IMG/VR virus record: IMGVR_UViG_3300032092_000098
Span: 1 to 38,353 of that record
Strand: one strand, 5' to 3'
Length of the DNA stretch: 38,353 nucleotides
Source: a virus
Shown piece by piece: positions 623-12,600 of the stretch. Positions within the stretch are counted from its first letter, which is position 1. Each line of letters begins with the position of its first letter. The notes under the pieces are model-generated. The model searched no databases. It was not told where the DNA came from and was given only the letters and a program-made list of their open reading frames with translations. Position numbers and translations under genes: made by a program.

Positions 623-1129
623 ATGGCACTTAAAATTACTACCCAGATTGGAACCGATAAAGGTATTACATCTGAGGCATATGTACGTATAGCTGATTAT
701 CAGATCTCTAAATATGGGTCTGCTAACTTTAGAATTGAACTTTTTCAAAGTGAAGAGGATGCAACTCCTGCTACTTCTTACCCAGGAATGGGTGGCGGTG
801 TAGCTCGTAACCAACAAATTGGTGAGAGTTTATATGTAGCTCTAACTAAACAAGTAGAAGAAACTATCACTGTAAAGCGTATGGTTCCTGTACAAGTAGA
901 GTTTGAAGAAGAAGTTGCTGGTCCTTTGGATTCTGACGGTAATCCTACAAGCACAACTGTTACTAGAACTCGTACAGAAACGCAAGAACAAGATGTAGAA
1001 GAAACAATCACTAAGACTGTTCCTGATCTAACTTCTGCTGAAGATGTAGATGTATTTGAGTTTGGTTACGGTCATTTGAAAGCAAAACTAGAAGGTCTGT
1101 TTGGTGCAGCCAACGTGGTTGATTGTTAA
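623..1129 (+). CDS. possible capsid-associated structural protein (168 aa)
   Basis: ATG start after an A-rich leader (acaaacttat) with no Shine-Dalgarno; first gene after the terminator at 533-558. The N-terminus M-A-L-K-I-T-T-Q-I-G-T-D-K-G-I-T-S-E-A-Y-V-R-I reads as alternating beta structure. The middle (about residues 80-140) is rich in Thr, Val, Glu and Arg, with a charged low-complexity stretch around T-R-T-R-T-E-T-Q-E-Q-D-V-E-E-T. The C-terminus returns to a compact segment, D-V-F-E-F-G-Y-G-H-L-K. No enzyme motif, membrane segment or signal peptide is visible. Its position between capsid-proximal and fibre genes, and its beta-rich, Thr-rich makeup, suit a decoration, auxiliary capsid or head-fibre base protein. 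This is inference from context; a tail component is equally possible. Confidence 0.55.
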   Translation: MALKITTQIGTDKGITSEAYVRIADYQISKYGSANFRIELFQSEEDATPATSYPGMGGGVARNQQIGESLYVALTKQVEETITVKRMVPVQVEFEEEVAGPLDSDGNPTSTTVTRTRTETQEQDVEETITKTVPDLTSAEDVDVFEFGYGHLKAKLEGLFGAANVVDC

Positions 1130-1153
1130 TAACTTATTGATACCCAATATACT

Positions 1154-2389
1154 ATGTTACCTACGAAATCCAATACTGCCGATAAGGGTTGTTCTCCGGT
1201 GTCCTCCAATTGTGTAATCTGGCAAGGACCGGATCTAGGATGCATTGACCTCTGCAACGGTGATGCAATCTCTGATGTAGTGTACAAAGTAGCTACAAAA
1301 CTTTGTACTATTCAGACTTCTTTAGACTTATCTACTTTAGACTTATCTTGTCTAGTTTCTTTTTGTTCGGCAGCAAATCCTGCCCCTACTAATAAGACCC
1401 TATTGGCAGTATTGGATTTTATTATAGATAAAGTGTGCTGTTTAAATACAGCTATTCAAAACTTACCAGCTGGTGGAGGTTCTAGTTATACTGAACCTAA
1501 CGTATCATTACCTACTTGTTTACAATACACTGATCCAGGTACAGGCCAAACTGTTACAGTATTACAACATAGTGCTTATACACTAAGACTTGCTAATCAG
1601 TATTGTAATCTAAAAGCTACAGTAGATAGTCAAACTACTACAATTGCTTCTCATAATACTAGAATTACTGCTTTAGAAAATAGACCTACAACAACTCTTC
1701 CTTTAGTAACTCCTAATTGTATTTTAACTCCTGGTACACCTACAGCTATGAATTTAGTTCTTGATGAACTAGAAGCTCAGTATTGTACACTAAGAGGTGT
1801 ATTAGGAACAAACACTGCATTAACAACAGCTATTGCTCAGCAATGTCAAGGACTTGGAGCATCTAGTGCTTTAAGTACTTCAGGTACTATTAGTAGTCTA
1901 CCTGGATGGAATGCTACTTCTACTACAGTTGCTTCTGCAGTTCAAAATCTTTGGGTTGTATTGTGTGACATGCGTCAGACAATTTTTGATCTTAAAACTT
2001 CAGTTGGTTCTACAGATTGTTCTTCTTTCTTACTTGGTTTTACAGCTGCAACTAATGAAGCTCGTACTCAAGTTACAGTGTTCTTTAATGGTGGTGGTAC
2101 AGTAATTCCTTCAGGATTTGCAAACTGTACAGCTTTAGGATCTAAGATTACTATTAAAGATGCATCTGGAAAAACTTACACTGATAATGTAAACTTACTA
2201 ACTGCTGTTACAGATACAGATGGTATTACTTACACTGTTTCTGGAGCTGCTCTAAATACATCTCAAGCGTACACAATTACTGTAGAAGGGTGTCTTACTA
2301 AGAACGGTAACAGTTGTTCTAAGACAGCTACATTTACAGTTGCTGTACCTTGTCCAATTATTTCATCAGTAACTGCAACACTAACCTAG
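1154..2389 (+). CDS. head/tail fibre-type protein with N-terminal anchor motif and C-terminal FN3-like domain
   Basis: ATG start after ...CAATATACT. The N-terminal 50 residues are Cys-rich (C13, C20, C30, C34) and contain W23-Q-G-P-D-L...N35-G-D-A-I-S-D-V-V-Y-K45. A very similar motif recurs in the protein starting at 2972, so this is probably a virion-attachment module. Residues 100-300 are Ser/Thr/Leu-rich with heptad-like stretches (around Q-T-T-T-I-A-S-H-N-T-R-I-T-A-L-E-N-R), consistent with a trimeric coiled fibre shaft. The last 120 residues form a beta domain of FN3/Ig type. The protein ends in C-P-I-I-S-S-V-T-A-T-L-T, which reads as the first strand of a further FN3 domain whose remainder begins the next gene, one base away (TAGTATG). 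Probably a receptor-binding or decorative fibre. Confidence 0.6.
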   Translation: MLPTKSNTADKGCSPVSSNCVIWQGPDLGCIDLCNGDAISDVVYKVATKLCTIQTSLDLSTLDLSCLVSFCSAANPAPTNKTLLAVLDFIIDKVCCLNTAIQNLPAGGGSSYTEPNVSLPTCLQYTDPGTGQTVTVLQHSAYTLRLANQYCNLKATVDSQTTTIASHNTRITALENRPTTTLPLVTPNCILTPGTPTAMNLVLDELEAQYCTLRGVLGTNTALTTAIAQQCQGLGASSALSTSGTISSLPGWNATSTTVASAVQNLWVVLCDMRQTIFDLKTSVGSTDCSSFLLGFTAATNEARTQVTVFFNGGGTVIPSGFANCTALGSKITIKDASGKTYTDNVNLLTAVTDTDGITYTVSGAALNTSQAYTITVEGCLTKNGNSCSKTATFTVAVPCPIISSVTATLT

Positions 2390-2390
2390 T

Positions 2391-2945
2391 ATGAACGTAA
2401 CATTAGCCTGGACACCTGGTGCAGGGTCTACATCTCAGAGTGTGCAATATAAACTTGCGTCAGCTTCTACATGGACTACTTTTAGTACTGTGTCGGGTAC
2501 AACTGCTACGGTGAATGTTACTGGACTTAGTGATAACTTAATCTATGATTTTAGAATTACTACTGCTTGTAATGGAGGAACATCTACAGTAAGTCCCACT
2601 GTACAAAAGATTAACATTATTTGTCCTACTGTTACAATAACTCCTGCATCTACAAGTTTATCTTATAGTTTTCCAGAGATTGGTGGTTCAGTGACAACTT
2701 ATGCTGTTAAACTATTTGATTCAACAGGTAATTCAGAACTAGCTTCTCAAACTCCTACAGGAACTACAACTCTTACAGGAACTTTTAGTAGTTTAACTGC
2801 TAGTACAACTTATAAACTTAGAGTGATTCCTACAGCAGGAACAATCACTAAAACTGATTGTGCGTTTACAACTGGTGTGACATCTGCTCCTCCTGTGTGT
2901 AATGCTCCTACAAACGTAACTGCTGATTTAACAGCTCAACCATAA
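2391..2945 (+). CDS. tandem fibronectin type III-like fibre protein (184 aa)
   Basis: The ATG lies one base after the previous TAG, so translation is probably coupled by termination-reinitiation. Two FN3-like domains are visible. Domain 1 (about 1-78) starts directly with a B-strand (N-V-T-L-A-W-T-P-G-A-G) and has the typical S-V-Q-Y-K and L-I-Y-D-F-R-I-T-T patterns. Domain 2 (about 79-165) has T-T-Y-K-L-R-V-I-P. The C-terminus, C-N-A-P-T-N-V-T-A-D-L-T, is again a lone FN3 A-strand. There is no signal peptide or enzyme motif. Extracellular-type beta domains in a fibre cassette suggest host binding or capsid decoration. It could be the second half of the 1154-2389 protein joined by a +1 shift, but no canonical slippery site is seen. 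Confidence 0.6.
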   Translation: MNVTLAWTPGAGSTSQSVQYKLASASTWTTFSTVSGTTATVNVTGLSDNLIYDFRITTACNGGTSTVSPTVQKINIICPTVTITPASTSLSYSFPEIGGSVTTYAVKLFDSTGNSELASQTPTGTTTLTGTFSSLTASTTYKLRVIPTAGTITKTDCAFTTGVTSAPPVCNAPTNVTADLTAQP

Positions 2946-2971
2946 TATAAACATTTTAATAATATAAGACT

Positions 2972-3628
2972 ATGTCATGCGGTTGTAACGATACTCCCCT
3001 ACCTTTAGGTAACTGCAACGATGGTTGTGCAGATTGCTCTCCTACTAATACAGTGAGTTTACCTCCTTGTGTAAGTGGTGAACCATGTGATGAAATTTTG
3101 TTTACAGATTGTGTAAAGTTTGCTGGACCAAATCTTCCAGCTCTTGGTATTGTTAACGGTGATCGTTTACTTACAGTATTGACTAAACTACATAGAGTTC
3201 TTAATGGTGTAATTACTCCAACTATTACATTGGCTAACTACACTGCTACAGCTACTACAACTACACCTTTAGTAGTAAGTTATTTAGGACTTGGTCCCGT
3301 TTATACTTCTACTGCTGGTGCAACAAGTAATGGTACAGCTATCACTGTTGGTAGTACTACTGGCTTAGTAGCTGGTATGACTTTAGAAGTGACAGCTGGT
3401 GTAGGTGCATTTCCTTCAGGAACTACTGTGGTAAGTGTTACTAGTACAACTATATTTGTAGCTTCAGCAGCACCAAGTACAGCATTATCTGGCGGTGCAA
3501 CTATCATTAGAGGTACAGGAACTAGTCATCAAATCTTTAACATTACTGTAGTACAAAATACTCCAAGAACATTTAGAGCATTTGTAGGCTCACACGTTGT
3601 AGTGAGTGGTACAGGTACAGTCGTATAA
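2972..3628 (+). CDS. head/tail fibre-type protein with shared virion-anchor motif (218 aa)
   Basis: ATG after ...ATAAGACT. The N-terminus is Cys-rich (M-S-C-G-C-N-D..., C15, C19, C22, C33, C39, C47), then carries F50-A-G-P-N-L...N62-G-D-R-L-L-T-V-L-T-K72. This aligns without gaps over 24 residues to W23-V46 of the protein starting at 1154. Residues about 110-175 hold a Gly/Thr/Val-rich beta repeat (V-G-S-T-T-G-L-V-A-G-M-T... S-G-T-T-V-V-S-V) of a kind common in phage fibre and tail proteins. The C-terminus is a beta segment ending G-T-G-T-V-V. I infer a small fibre or collar decoration using the same docking site as the 1154-2389 protein. It is eleven bases from the next gene. Confidence 0.55.
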   Translation: MSCGCNDTPLPLGNCNDGCADCSPTNTVSLPPCVSGEPCDEILFTDCVKFAGPNLPALGIVNGDRLLTVLTKLHRVLNGVITPTITLANYTATATTTTPLVVSYLGLGPVYTSTAGATSNGTAITVGSTTGLVAGMTLEVTAGVGAFPSGTTVVSVTSTTIFVASAAPSTALSGGATIIRGTGTSHQIFNITVVQNTPRTFRAFVGSHVVVSGTGTVV

Positions 3629-3639
3629 CAAATAACCAT

Positions 3640-4077
3640 ATGCCAGTAGCACCTTGTAATGTATTAAAAACTTTAACTATTCAGTATTCTACAGCTAGTA
3701 TTATGCCTGATAGTGGGTACACCGTTCAGTGGAAAATTGTAGGAGATGATGTTTGGTATACAGAACCTAATAAAAGAGCTAATCCCATTGTAATATCTGG
3801 AGTACCAGCTTGTTATCCTTTAGAAGTTAAACTGTTAGTTGATTGTGGTTCAGGTTTAGAAGTGGTAGAAACATTTGGTGTACAAGGAACTGGTGGCTCT
3901 GTTTGTTACGAGTTTGAACTTCTTGATAATGCTGAATATTCATATACACCATGTGGTGGTTTAACAGCCGTAACAATATTTAATTCTACAGGTTTATCAA
4001 CACCACAAACCGTATGTGCTATTGACGGATCAGTTAGTGGTGGTAGTTACACTCGTAAAAATCAATGTTTAGGATAA
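3640..4077 (+). CDS. FN3-like beta-domain fibre protein (145 aa)
   Basis: ATG after ACAAATAACCAT. The N-terminal domain (L-T-I-Q-Y-S-T-A-S-I-M-P-D-S-G-Y-T-V-Q-W-K) has the FN3-like B/C-strand pattern also found at the starts of the proteins at 4082 and 5400. The pattern V-W-Y-T-E-P and G-V-P-A-C-Y-P-L-E-V-K-L suits the following strands. The C-terminal third is Cys- and Gly-rich (C-Y-E-F-E-L, Y-T-P-C-G-G-L, V-C-A-I-D-G-S-V). No enzyme motif, signal peptide or membrane segment is present. It lies in the fibre cassette with a 4-nt gap to the next gene, suggesting co-translation. The specific role is unknown; an adhesive or structural bead is the best guess. Confidence 0.5.
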   Translation: MPVAPCNVLKTLTIQYSTASIMPDSGYTVQWKIVGDDVWYTEPNKRANPIVISGVPACYPLEVKLLVDCGSGLEVVETFGVQGTGGSVCYEFELLDNAEYSYTPCGGLTAVTIFNSTGLSTPQTVCAIDGSVSGGSYTRKNQCLG

Positions 4078-4081
4078 TTAG

Positions 4082-5197
4082 ATGGCTAATCAATTAACTA
4101 TAAATTTTACTGCAGCTAGTCCAGCACCGTCTGGAGGATATCTAGTTAGATATTGGGATACGTCTACTCCTGGAACAGTGTTAACAACAACTGTTACAAG
4201 TAGTCCAGCTGTTATTAATAATTTACCTGGATACAATTATACAGGTACAATTGAATCAGTTTGTAGTTTTGGTAACTCTACTAGAGTAAATTTTACAGAC
4301 GCTGTTTGTAATGTAACATTTAATATTTCTTCTACATCCCCAACTAACCAACAAGGTACTAATGGTACTGCTACAATTAGTAATATTGTAGGTGGCTCTG
4401 GTTCATATACTTATAGCTGGAATACATCTCCTGTACAGACAACAATAACTGCTACAGGATTAACTGGTGGTCAAACATATATCGCTACAGTTACAGATAC
4501 TGTAACAGGTTGTGTTACTACAGAAAATATTGTAATTGGTGAAACAAACTTTACGTTTGATGCTGATTACATGGTGATAACTTATGAGTTTACAAATGGA
4601 ACAGATTTAGATACAAGGACAAGAATTGTGTCTATTGATGGTACAACATATGCTGATCAAAATGGACAAGGTAAATATATAGGATGGGATCAATATAGAA
4701 GAACTCCACAAAGTGCTACATATATAGAGAATGGTAGTGTATGTACATTACCTGTTAAGCCATTAGCAATTTGGGGTTCTGATAATCTACTACAAGGTTA
4801 TGAATCTGTAATGGTTGACTTTACACAACTTGGTGCTGGACAAAATGAAGTGGTAATAGATTGTCGTGCATTTTGGTATAGTGTACTTGGTACTAATCCA
4901 GTCAACATAAGTTTTACTCTTTATAAAGGAGGATGTATGATTAAACAAGGTGCAAGTGGATCTCCAGCATTTAATTTTACTAATCCTACAGCTACTGCAA
5001 CATTAACTGGAGCATCAGCTAGTAAATTAATTACAGCTAAAAATACTAGTGGTACAGCTACAGGTTCTTCTGATTTAGAAAGTCCTAATGTTTCAGTTAA
5101 TTTAACAAGAGGTCAACGTTTAGCTGTTATTACTTATAACAGAAGTACAAACGTAGGTAATATAGATACTAATGATACAACAACTCCTGTAGTATAA
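4082..5197 (+). CDS. fibre/adhesin protein with FN3-like and SprB-type domains
   Basis: ATG after TAATTAG, no Shine-Dalgarno. Domain 1 (residues 1-75) is FN3-like (L-T-I-N-F-T-A-A-S-P-A-P-S-G-G-Y-L-V-R-Y-W) and closely matches the protein at 5400. Domain 2 (about 76-154) has the SprB-repeat pattern: G-T-N-G-T-A-T-I-S...G-G-S-G-S-Y-T-Y-S-W, then A-T-G-L-T-G-G-Q-T-Y-I-A-T-V-T-D-T-V-T-G-C-V. Such repeats are typical of Bacteroidota gliding/surface adhesins. Domain 3 (about 155-371) is a large beta-rich module with D-L-D-T-R-T, I-W-G-S-D-N, G-Y-E-S and F-T-L-Y-K-G-G, resembling a C-terminal module I associate with flavobacterial phage tail proteins; I cannot name it. Probably a receptor-binding tip. 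The stop overlaps the next start (TAATG). Confidence 0.6.
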   Translation: MANQLTINFTAASPAPSGGYLVRYWDTSTPGTVLTTTVTSSPAVINNLPGYNYTGTIESVCSFGNSTRVNFTDAVCNVTFNISSTSPTNQQGTNGTATISNIVGGSGSYTYSWNTSPVQTTITATGLTGGQTYIATVTDTVTGCVTTENIVIGETNFTFDADYMVITYEFTNGTDLDTRTRIVSIDGTTYADQNGQGKYIGWDQYRRTPQSATYIENGSVCTLPVKPLAIWGSDNLLQGYESVMVDFTQLGAGQNEVVIDCRAFWYSVLGTNPVNISFTLYKGGCMIKQGASGSPAFNFTNPTATATLTGASASKLITAKNTSGTATGSSDLESPNVSVNLTRGQRLAVITYNRSTNVGNIDTNDTTTPVV

Positions 5198-5400
5198 TGA
5201 AAGAACTAACAAAAATAATAGAAGATAATTTAGGTGTTGATCATGTAATACATGCTTCTTATGATCTTAATAATTCTCACTATACTATTTATAAAGAATA
5301 TGATGGTATGAGAAATGTAGTTATGAAAGATCATAATACACTTAGTTCATTCTTTAATAATCTTATTGAGGCTGATAACTGGATAAATACTAATTCATAA
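5197..5400 (+). CDS. small hypothetical protein (67 aa)
   Basis: Start and stop each overlap a neighbour by one base in a TAATG arrangement (5197 and 5400), strongly indicating a real, translationally coupled gene. The product is a small acidic-to-neutral protein, N-terminally helical (K-E-L-T-K-I-I-E-D-N-L), then beta-like (H-Y-T-I-Y-K-E-Y-D-G-M), with a C-terminal helix (L-S-S-F-F-N-N-L-I-E-A-D-N-W). It has no Cys, signal peptide or membrane segment. It is unlike its FN3-type neighbours and separates two paralogous FN3 genes. A fibre chaperone or assembly factor would fit the context, but nothing in the sequence proves it. Confidence 0.7.
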   Translation: MKELTKIIEDNLGVDHVIHASYDLNNSHYTIYKEYDGMRNVVMKDHNTLSSFFNNLIEADNWINTNS

Positions 5401-5627
5401 TGCCAACTTTAAATATAACTTTCCCTGCAGCATCACCTGCTCCATCATCGGGGTATAGGGTAAAGTATTGGCCTACTGATGATCCTGCAAACATAACTAC
5501 AACTATTATAGCTACAAATTCTCTTTCAGTACCTGGATTAACAGGTACATCATATACAGGAACTGTAGAGGTAATTTGTGGAGAAGGAGCTTATAGCTCA
5601 CCAAGGAATTTTACAACAGTAGTTTAA
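5400..5627 (+). CDS. single FN3-like domain protein (75 aa)
   Basis: TAATG overlap with the preceding gene. The protein is one beta domain, M-P-T-L-N-I-T-F-P-A-A-S-P-A-P-S-S-G-Y-R-V-K-Y-W, then Y-T-G-T-V-E-V-I-C-G-E-G-A-Y-S-S-P-R-N-F-T. It aligns well with the first 75 residues of the protein at 4082 (the A-A-S-P-A-P-S, G-Y-x-V-x-Y-W and Y-T-G-T-[IV]-E sections are shared), so the two arose by duplication. It ends exactly where the SprB domain begins in the longer paralogue. It is the last gene of the fibre cassette, followed by a noncoding gap with a hairpin. Role: likely a fibre subunit or a truncated copy. Confidence 0.65.
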   Translation: MPTLNITFPAASPAPSSGYRVKYWPTDDPANITTTIIATNSLSVPGLTGTSYTGTVEVICGEGAYSSPRNFTTVV

Positions 5628-5675
5628 AAATATAAAAAAGTCAGTGGTTTTGTTGGTTTCCACCTGGCAAACAAG

Positions 5676-5711
5676 GCCCCTGGTGTTTCTACATCGGGGG
5701 CTAAAATTTTT
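5676..5711 (+). terminator. possible hairpin terminator after the fibre cassette
   Basis: GCCCC (5676-5680) can pair with GGGGC (5697-5701) around a 16-nt loop, followed by the A/T-rich tract TAAAATTTTT. It lies about 50 nt after the last fibre gene. The stem is short and the loop long, so this is weaker than the terminator at 533-558. A further imperfect CAGTGG/CCACCTG pairing lies just upstream (about 5642-5666), so the gap may fold as a larger structure. Confidence 0.4.
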
Positions 5712-9691: not shown

Positions 9692-12600
9692 ACAAGAATC
9701 ACAAAATCCGGGAGCTGTTACCAACACCTTTAATAAAGGGATGGTAAAAGATTACAATGAGACTTTTGTAGGTGAAGGTTTGTGGACGCATGCCCGTAAT
9801 GCAGTTAACAATTCTCATGATGGTCAAGTTGGGGTTATTGGTAATGAACCAGCTAACTTATATTGTGCCACACTTCCTTATACATTAATTGGTACTATAC
9901 ATCTTGGTGACGATCAATGGGCTGTATTTACTACAGATGATCTTAACTCTGAGATTGGAATTTTTGATGAATCAGCTTGTTCTTATACTAAGATTATAAA
10001 TGATCCATGTTTAAACTTTAAACGTACAAACTTAATTACTGGTGTGTCACGTTCAAGGTTTGACTGTGATACACTACTTTATTGGGACGATGGTTTAAAT
10101 CCTACTAGAGTTTTGAATATTAATGACATACCTTATGTATGTGTAGATAGTACAGTAAATACAGCAAAACAACCTTTTAAGTATAAACTTATTGGAGCTA
10201 CTTGTCCTGCTAAGACAGCTAAGACAACTATTATATATAAAGACATTAATTATGTTTCTCAAACTAAGCATTTAGTTGATGGAGAAGTGTTTGAGTTTTT
10301 ATCTTTTGATAAAGCTTCTGATATGCAGGTTACTACACAATCTTGTGTTGCAGAACCATGTTATACTCACATAATTAACATTGCAATACCTACAGCTGGT
10401 CGTACTGCATATGAGTTATGTCTTACAGATCAACAAGCTTATGAACAACAGTTTCCAGGAGGAGTTCTTGATGCGTTAACTGTTATAGCTAAAAAAGTAG
10501 ATAATAATGGAAACCCTATACCTTGTGGATGTGTATCTCAAAGTACAACCACAACTCCATATACTTTAAACGATGTTACTGTTATATCTCCAACTAACAC
10601 TGGTATTGGATGTACAACCCCTGTCTGTTCAGACAGACTTGATTGTGAAAAGATAAGACTAGCAAGTATAGTAAAACATCCTTGTATATCTTTACAAAAA
10701 GGTAAGGGTGCTGGTACGTTAGCCAATGGTTCTTACCAAGTGGCATTAGCGTATACGGTAGATCAAGTTAAGGTGACAGACTACTTTGGTTTAAGTGAAG
10801 TGCAGTCATTGTTTAGTCACCAGAACTTATCTGGTTCTTTAGAAGTGACTATTACAGATATTGATAAAAACTTTGACGAGTTTGAGTTAATAGTTATATC
10901 TAACATTAACCAGCAAACAGTAGCTAAAAGTCTTGGTTACTATTCTACTAGTCAAGGGGTTATTTATATAAGTAGTGTAGGTCCAGAATTAATTACTGTA
11001 CCTCTTACAATGGTTGTTCTTAGAACAGAACCAATTGAGAAATCAGATGCATTATATTCTGTAACTGATTATTTAATACGTGTAGGTACATATACTAAGT
11101 TTAGATTTAATTATCAACAACAAGCTAATGCTATTAGATCAAAGTGGGTAGCTGTACAATATCCATCTACTTATTATATAAAAGGAGGAAACAATCCTTC
11201 TTTTATGAGAGATGAACAATATGCATTTTTTATTAGATGGGTATACAATACAGGTGAGCGTTCTGATTCATACCATATTCCAGGTAGACCTGCTCTAGCA
11301 TCTGATAGAGCTACTGTTGCAGGAGAAGATGTATTTGAAATAGAAGATGGTGTAACACCACAACGTTGGAAAGTAGAAAACACAGCTACAGTAGACAGTT
11401 TAACAACAAGCACATTAGCGGATGGTGGTAAAATTATTGCAAGTGGTCAAATGGGTTATTGGGAATCTACAGAGTTATATCCTGATAATAAACCACAAAT
11501 ATGGGGAACTTTGTGTGGTCAACCTATTAGACATCATAAGTTTCCTGATGCCACTGTAGATCCTATTATTAATCATTTTAATACTGATGGTCAAAACATT
11601 GTTGTTTTAGGCGTACAGTTTGAGAATATTACACATCCATTAGATATGGATGGTAAACCAATTGCTTCTGTAGTTGGATATGAAATACTAAGAGGAACAA
11701 GAGAAGGTCATAAAACTATTGTAGCTACAGGTGTATTTAACAATATGCGTGAGTATACAATTCAAGAAGGCACTGTAGGTGTTCAAGGATTGTTTCAGAA
11801 CTATCCATATAATGACTTATCAGAAGATTATTATTTAACATCTAATGAAGAGATCATTAATGATGGTTCATTTACTAATCGTAAGAAAGATCCTTTAAAG
11901 GACTATAGAAAAGATATATTTTCTTTTCATAGTCCTGATACAACGTTTACTAAACCATTTTTATCTATACAGGAAGTAAAGTTATACGGTGAAGTTTATG
12001 GTAAGTCTCAAGGATTTTTTGAGAATCCTTGGAGACATCCTAAGAATAAGTTTATTGGTAAAGACATAGAGTTTGTAAACAAAGCTTTACAGATAATTAG
12101 AATTATTAATAGTGTATCTACTAAGTTACCTCCAGGTGCTGTAGAGTTTACAGGTAATAATAATCTTCCTGTTAAACTTAATGTTACTCCTGTAGAACCT
12201 GAACCAAAGAAAACTGTATTAGGATCAATTCTTGGAGGTATAACAAACCTTATTGCTCCAGGTGCAGGATCAGCAGTATCAGGTGTAGTTGATAATATAG
12301 CTTATGGTATTAATCAATTTAGTTATGCAGCTCAACTACTTGTAGTAAAATACATACATACTGAAACTACTAGTGCTCAGATACAAATTTTAATTTACGG
12401 TTTAATTCCTAGACGTCAGTATGCTTTACAATACAACTCTCATGGATTCTTTAATAAGTTTGTTCAGTCACAAACTGGTAACAGAAGAAGAAAAATTGAT
12501 GATAGTTTATATGTAGGAGGAAACGTTCAAGGTTTTAATAATGGTTTTAGAATCAATAACTTATATAGAGGAAACTTTGTAGTTATTAAACTTCCATCTG

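Follow-up and report, generated by a model that had tools for sequence, protein, structure and literature searches.

Organization of the locus

The window, the whole 38,353-nucleotide stretch of viral record IMGVR_UViG_3300032092_000098, contains a gene cluster (623–5627) flanked by two terminator-like hairpins, one upstream (527–556) and one downstream (5675–5702), and all cluster features described here lie on the forward strand. The presumed fibre shaft protein, P1 (1154–2389, 411 aa), has an N-terminal motif, central coiled-coil-like repeats, an Ig/FN3-like domain (residues 286–397) and a lone FN3 A-strand at its C-terminus. Its last residues are CPIISSVTATLT, and the reading frame 1154–2389 closes with ...VPCPIISSVTATLT. 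The strand and its leading cysteine, C400-PIISSVTATLT, are encoded at 2351–2386. The TAG stop of P1 (2387–2389) is followed by a single T and the ATG of P2 at 2391, giving a TAG-T-ATG junction at 2387–2393. P2 (2391–2945, 184 aa) begins MNVTLAWTPGAG..., opening at an FN3 B-strand, and is made up of an FN3 domain without its A-strand (A-less; residues 1–76), an intact FN3 domain (77–167) and a second lone A-strand (170–180) in its C-terminus, ...PVCNAPTNVTADLTAQP. This second tail, C170-NAPTNVTADL (2898–2930), can be aligned to the tail found in P1 homologues that are not split. A TAA at 2382–2384 in the P2 frame places the upstream A-strand outside the reach of any in-frame P2 start.

The original prediction was that one FN3 domain is divided between the two genes, with P1 ending in strand A, P2 opening at strand B and P2 itself closing with another lone A-strand. 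The ends of both reading frames agree with this, as does the Pfam fn3 profile (PF00041, E 4.7e-10), which matches P2 from profile position 16 of 84 and, when P1–P2 is read across the junction, from position 6. Profile and predicted fold both identify the domain as FN3. Scores in phmmer against the same FN3 chains rise when the tail is joined (FN3con, 25.8 to 30.8 bits), but as a comparison made without a shuffled control this carries no weight here.

Further downstream, 9684–14726 matches a csAssE-Sib gene annotated as muzzle as well as structural proteins of Cellulophaga phages phi17:2 and phi4:1, and this muzzle homologue, one of the conserved tail genes, points to a crAss-like podovirus. 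The products of two other genes (7764 and 8435) have virion structural PHROGs as matches. P1 and P2 are themselves probable fibre components of the virion, to judge by gene order and family resemblance. P1 itself had no match among 50,697 phage records and no PHROG at E 0.01, and no relative of P2 was found in genome_contigs.

Structure models of the split domain

The AlphaFold model of P2 alone has a mean pLDDT of 93.7, with both domains folded and the first FN3 lacking exactly its first strand. FN3 chains match this model at Z up to 13.4, and the start of P2 falls some 13 residues into the FN3 fold, leaving a beta-sandwich one strand short; the alignment starts, for example, at residue 14 of 1qr4_A (14–175) and at residue 1828 of 9a3v_B. 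Residues 170–184 form no strand in the model. Since this C-terminal strand stays unpaired and the gap unfilled, P2 does not appear to complete itself, and packing of the tail within its own protein, which would have spoken against strand exchange, was not seen. As the A-less domain is predicted confidently in the absence of any donor, it may nevertheless be stable alone.

For a fused model we used the relative at locus L010, where P1 and P2 can be read through in frame with the TAA read as Lys. Here a strand (122–125) is placed ahead of strand B (132–135) and the terminal tail is again unpaired; mean pLDDT is 90.7, falling to about 72–83 near the junction. The completed domain now aligns with 1qr4_A from residue 1, starts at 1816 of 9a3v_B and matches 3tes_A at Z 12.6 (model 114–207 on 1–93), so that the joined sequence reads as a normal FN3 domain, as had been proposed. 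As modelled, the fused and P2-alone forms differ by a single strand, which occupies the A position. Because a covalent tether favours strand insertion, the fused model speaks for compatibility, not exchange. Judged from sequence and this tethered model, the strand missing from P2 is carried by the adjacent protein as a terminal extension.

Conservation of the cut

Scans of viral contigs recovered first 10 and then 15 loci with P2 relatives, and the cut is kept in all 15, each on a different contig. Chance or a base error can be excluded on these grounds, and an assembly error at the junction was likewise discarded as an explanation. Across the P2-relative loci, the P1 tail has invariant Cys, Ala and Leu residues; in the P2 tail the invariant residues are Cys, Pro and Ala. 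The dN/dS of the two tails is 0.23 (P1) and 0.27, compared with 0.26–0.30 in folded domains, and the A-strand tails are under purifying selection like that on the folded domains.

Candidate acceptors downstream

Directly after P2 lies a Cys-rich 218-aa protein (2972–3628) with an N-terminal motif resembling that of P1; the resemblance is weak (hhalign E 7e-4, probability 26%), and the common motif is perhaps a docking end. Three further genes are candidate acceptors for the P2 tail. The product of 3640–4077, a candidate tip, has an FN3-like domain starting near strand B behind a short Cys-containing leader. The product of 4082–5197, also a candidate tip, combines an A-less FN3-like N-terminus with a C-terminal domain related to phage proteins, and 5400–5627 encodes an A-less FN3 of 75 aa that stands by itself and has only one cysteine (C60). 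Close relatives of the 5400 protein keep the domain and have C-termini of differing length (75, 172 and 230 aa), as expected for exchangeable tips. A 67-aa Cys-free protein, kept in close relatives, lies between two of the candidate tip genes (5197–5400).

An HMM of the A-less FN3 was used to scan every forward-strand ORF at every locus. All 80 matches were N-terminal, with none behind another domain; 73 started within residue 12 and the other seven behind a leader of 13–24 residues. The seed consisted of N-terminal examples; the search itself would allow internal matches. Loci L032, L035 and L049 and the group to which the window belongs have up to three A-less genes per terminal donor tail, a number that would suit a shaft made of three chains, each with its tail. 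Donor–acceptor pairing is not one-to-one, since in some genomes a single terminal donor faces as many as three candidate acceptors. At four other loci (L033, L036, L037 and L040) a different series of genes follows P1, several per genome, with a similar short-strand motif (M...I.LTLNxSGPDTGPYxI..D) that is possibly another plug domain obeying the same logic. The cluster of L038 is adjoined by a 134-aa protein resembling an HNH endonuclease (10320–10724).

Co-occurrence of tails and acceptors

Pattern matches included 389 P1 relatives, of which 80 were kept. We sorted 60 non-redundant loci into classes by eye: 33 have both an A-strand tail and an A-less gene, and 19 have neither. One locus (L094) has an A-less gene with no A-strand tail, another (L079) lacks a tail and encodes an FN3 with its own A-strand (4699–4998), and the rest comprise five in a different arrangement and one (L069) that is incomplete. 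In L079, P1 stops right after the cysteine, as if the cut had moved. On a tree built from the N-terminal parts of P1, the state with neither tail nor acceptor is explained by two changes, an 18-member clade and the separate lineage L070. Members of the clade have a long P1 (738–1313 aa) with extra C-terminal domains and no acceptor genes; some carry a vWA-like C-terminal domain after the last FN3 (L064, 6001–8256), and in the L064 clade the extra domains stand on P1 in place of separate tip genes. Tail and acceptor have mostly been gained and lost together, but with only about two independent events this co-occurrence is supportive and not decisive.

Origin of the split

In a large group of P1 relatives of about 490–510 aa, the Ig-like domain is followed directly by an intact FN3, alignable with the second FN3 of P2. 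These proteins also end in a lone A-strand (C-x-P-P-T-x-V...), and are followed by a Cys-rich gene and then a gene opening at strand B. The suggestion that an ancestral fusion was split is partly supported by these homologues; because they too end in a lone strand, that strand probably predates the cut between P1 and P2. P2 probably represents an extra FN3 plus the ancestral end of P1, with the cut located after strand A. At L034, P2 is reduced to 93 aa, a single FN3 plus the tail. The P1 of L071, at first sight an exception, does contain the strand, as CIPVGVLATT, with an extension behind it.

A probable donor-strand joint and its alternatives

We consider donor-strand complementation between consecutive fibre proteins to be the probable explanation. 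P1 and P2 would be successive segments of the virion fibre of a crAss-like podovirus, with residues 400–411 of P1 serving as the A-strand of the first FN3 of P2, inserting beside its B-strand and completing the domain, so that the chains would be joined without covalent fusion. The C-terminal A-strand of P2 would in turn complete the A-less FN3 with which a tip protein begins (that of 4082 or 5400, perhaps of 3640). Of the three options originally put forward, this one is best supported, by the conserved split, the N-terminal A-less domains, the co-occurrence and the selection on the tails, from which we infer insertion between chains. It is favoured because the P2 tail leaves its own gap open and because A-less domains are found at N-termini only. 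Modules cut after strand A would be interchangeable units running from B to G plus A, onto which any protein beginning with an A-less FN3 could snap.

The cysteines may add to such a joint. P2 has four (C60, C78, C157 and C170). In its intact FN3, C78 precedes strand A and C157 lies at the F strand, so these two could form a pair, leaving C60 and C170 with no partner within P2. The donor tails have an invariant cysteine just ahead of the strand (C400 in P1), and a cysteine at position 60–61, the end of the F strand, is found in P2 (C60), in the 5400 protein (its C60) and in the 4082 protein (C61). Given these positions, an intermolecular disulfide from the donor cysteine to the acceptor cysteine at 60–61 may staple the joint. 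It is possible, although we propose it only tentatively, that all joints of the fibre consist of a donated A-strand and an intermolecular disulfide, with a constant A-less plug and tips exchanged on an unchanged shaft.

An unlikely alternative is neutral gene fission or insertion, leaving two independently folding, translationally coupled products in which the lone strands are leftovers and the A-less FN3 is self-sufficient. The confident prediction of the A-less domain without the strand agrees with this, as do tight stop–start junctions elsewhere in the genome (5197, 5400 and 8435). However, the tails are under selection similar to that on folded domains, they recur at the ends of P1, P2 and unsplit P1 homologues, and they are mostly lost along with the A-less genes.

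P2 could also chain with itself, its tail filling the slot of the next P2 to give a polymer, P1-(P2)n-tip. This variant of donor-strand complementation, which we regard as rather improbable, draws on the open slot and donor strand that P2 combines, also in the single-domain P2 of L034, but the P1 and P2 tails are consistently different (CPIISSVTATL and CNxPTxVTAxL), which suggests different partners. It is quite improbable that the tails are docking peptides binding elsewhere, for example on the 2972 protein or on a tip trimer, and not in the A-strand slot of an FN3. Some tails do occur ahead of a gene that is not A-less (L032, L035 and the 490–510 aa P1 group); against this, the tail resembles an A-strand, is close in length to what the acceptors lack (about 13 residues) and occupies the place at which unsplit homologues have the A-strand of an intact domain.

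Finally, a programmed +1 frameshift (the remaining original suggestion) or stop read-through, fusing P1 and P2 in a fraction of chains, would yield an intact FN3 and fits the +1 position of the ATG, one base past the stop, in most relatives, but is highly improbable: the distance from stop to ATG is 1 nt in most relatives, −4 in L014 and 6 in L010, and in more distant arrangements 6 (L029), 8 (L038) and 3 (L043), so that each of the three possible frames is represented; moreover, the codons that precede the stop (ACC, ACA and TCA among them) are not slippery, no slippery site is shared and the ATG is always kept. The same variation over all three frames, together with the cut common to every P2 relative, contradicts an indel at 2387–2391 as the cause of the split.

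Comparison with known systems

Ig-like domains are added by frameshift to some phage tail proteins. P1 and P2 resemble these in having Ig/FN3 domains on presumed phage structural proteins, but involve no frameshift and divide the domain between two chains. Closer in principle are chaperone–usher pili, where a subunit lacking its final strand is completed by the N-terminal extension of another (PMC10903470). As in the proposed joint, an incomplete Ig-like sandwich is filled by a neighbour's strand to build a chain of subunits; in P1/P2, however, the missing strand is the first, the putative donor is C-terminal and the fold is FN3, so the polarity differs from that of the pili, and no chaperone or usher was noticed. 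TasA/TapA biofilm fibres are likewise beta-sandwich subunits linked head-to-tail by a donated strand, with a separate first protein supplying the first strand (PMC10903470). TasA has an N-terminal donor and builds an extracellular fibre by repeating a single subunit, whereas P1 and P2 are different genes with a putative C-terminal donor and are probably part of the virion.

As a presumed crassvirus podovirus fibre, the assembly can be likened to the tail fibres of phi-crAss001, in which the trimeric fibre gp22 is docked by its N-terminus on gp38/gp39 hubs, further fibre proteins are added distally and disulfides link subunits of the tail (PMC10172136). The distal proteins there are poorly resolved, and the portion of the text searched makes no mention of a donor strand (PMC10172136). 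A literature search covering few subscription papers turned up no description of such joints in phage fibres. Pili and TasA already exemplify the principle, and the combination of a C-terminal A-strand donor, an FN3 fold and a phage fibre looks to be a new form of it.

P1 and P2 provide a natural split FN3 domain. If the proposed joint is correct, phage fibres would join the structures assembled by donated strands, here with the polarity of pili reversed. The sequence rule of an A-strand tail followed by genes that begin at strand B would then predict which tips go with which shafts in uncultured phages, and crAss-like phages could swap their receptor-binding tips as separate genes.
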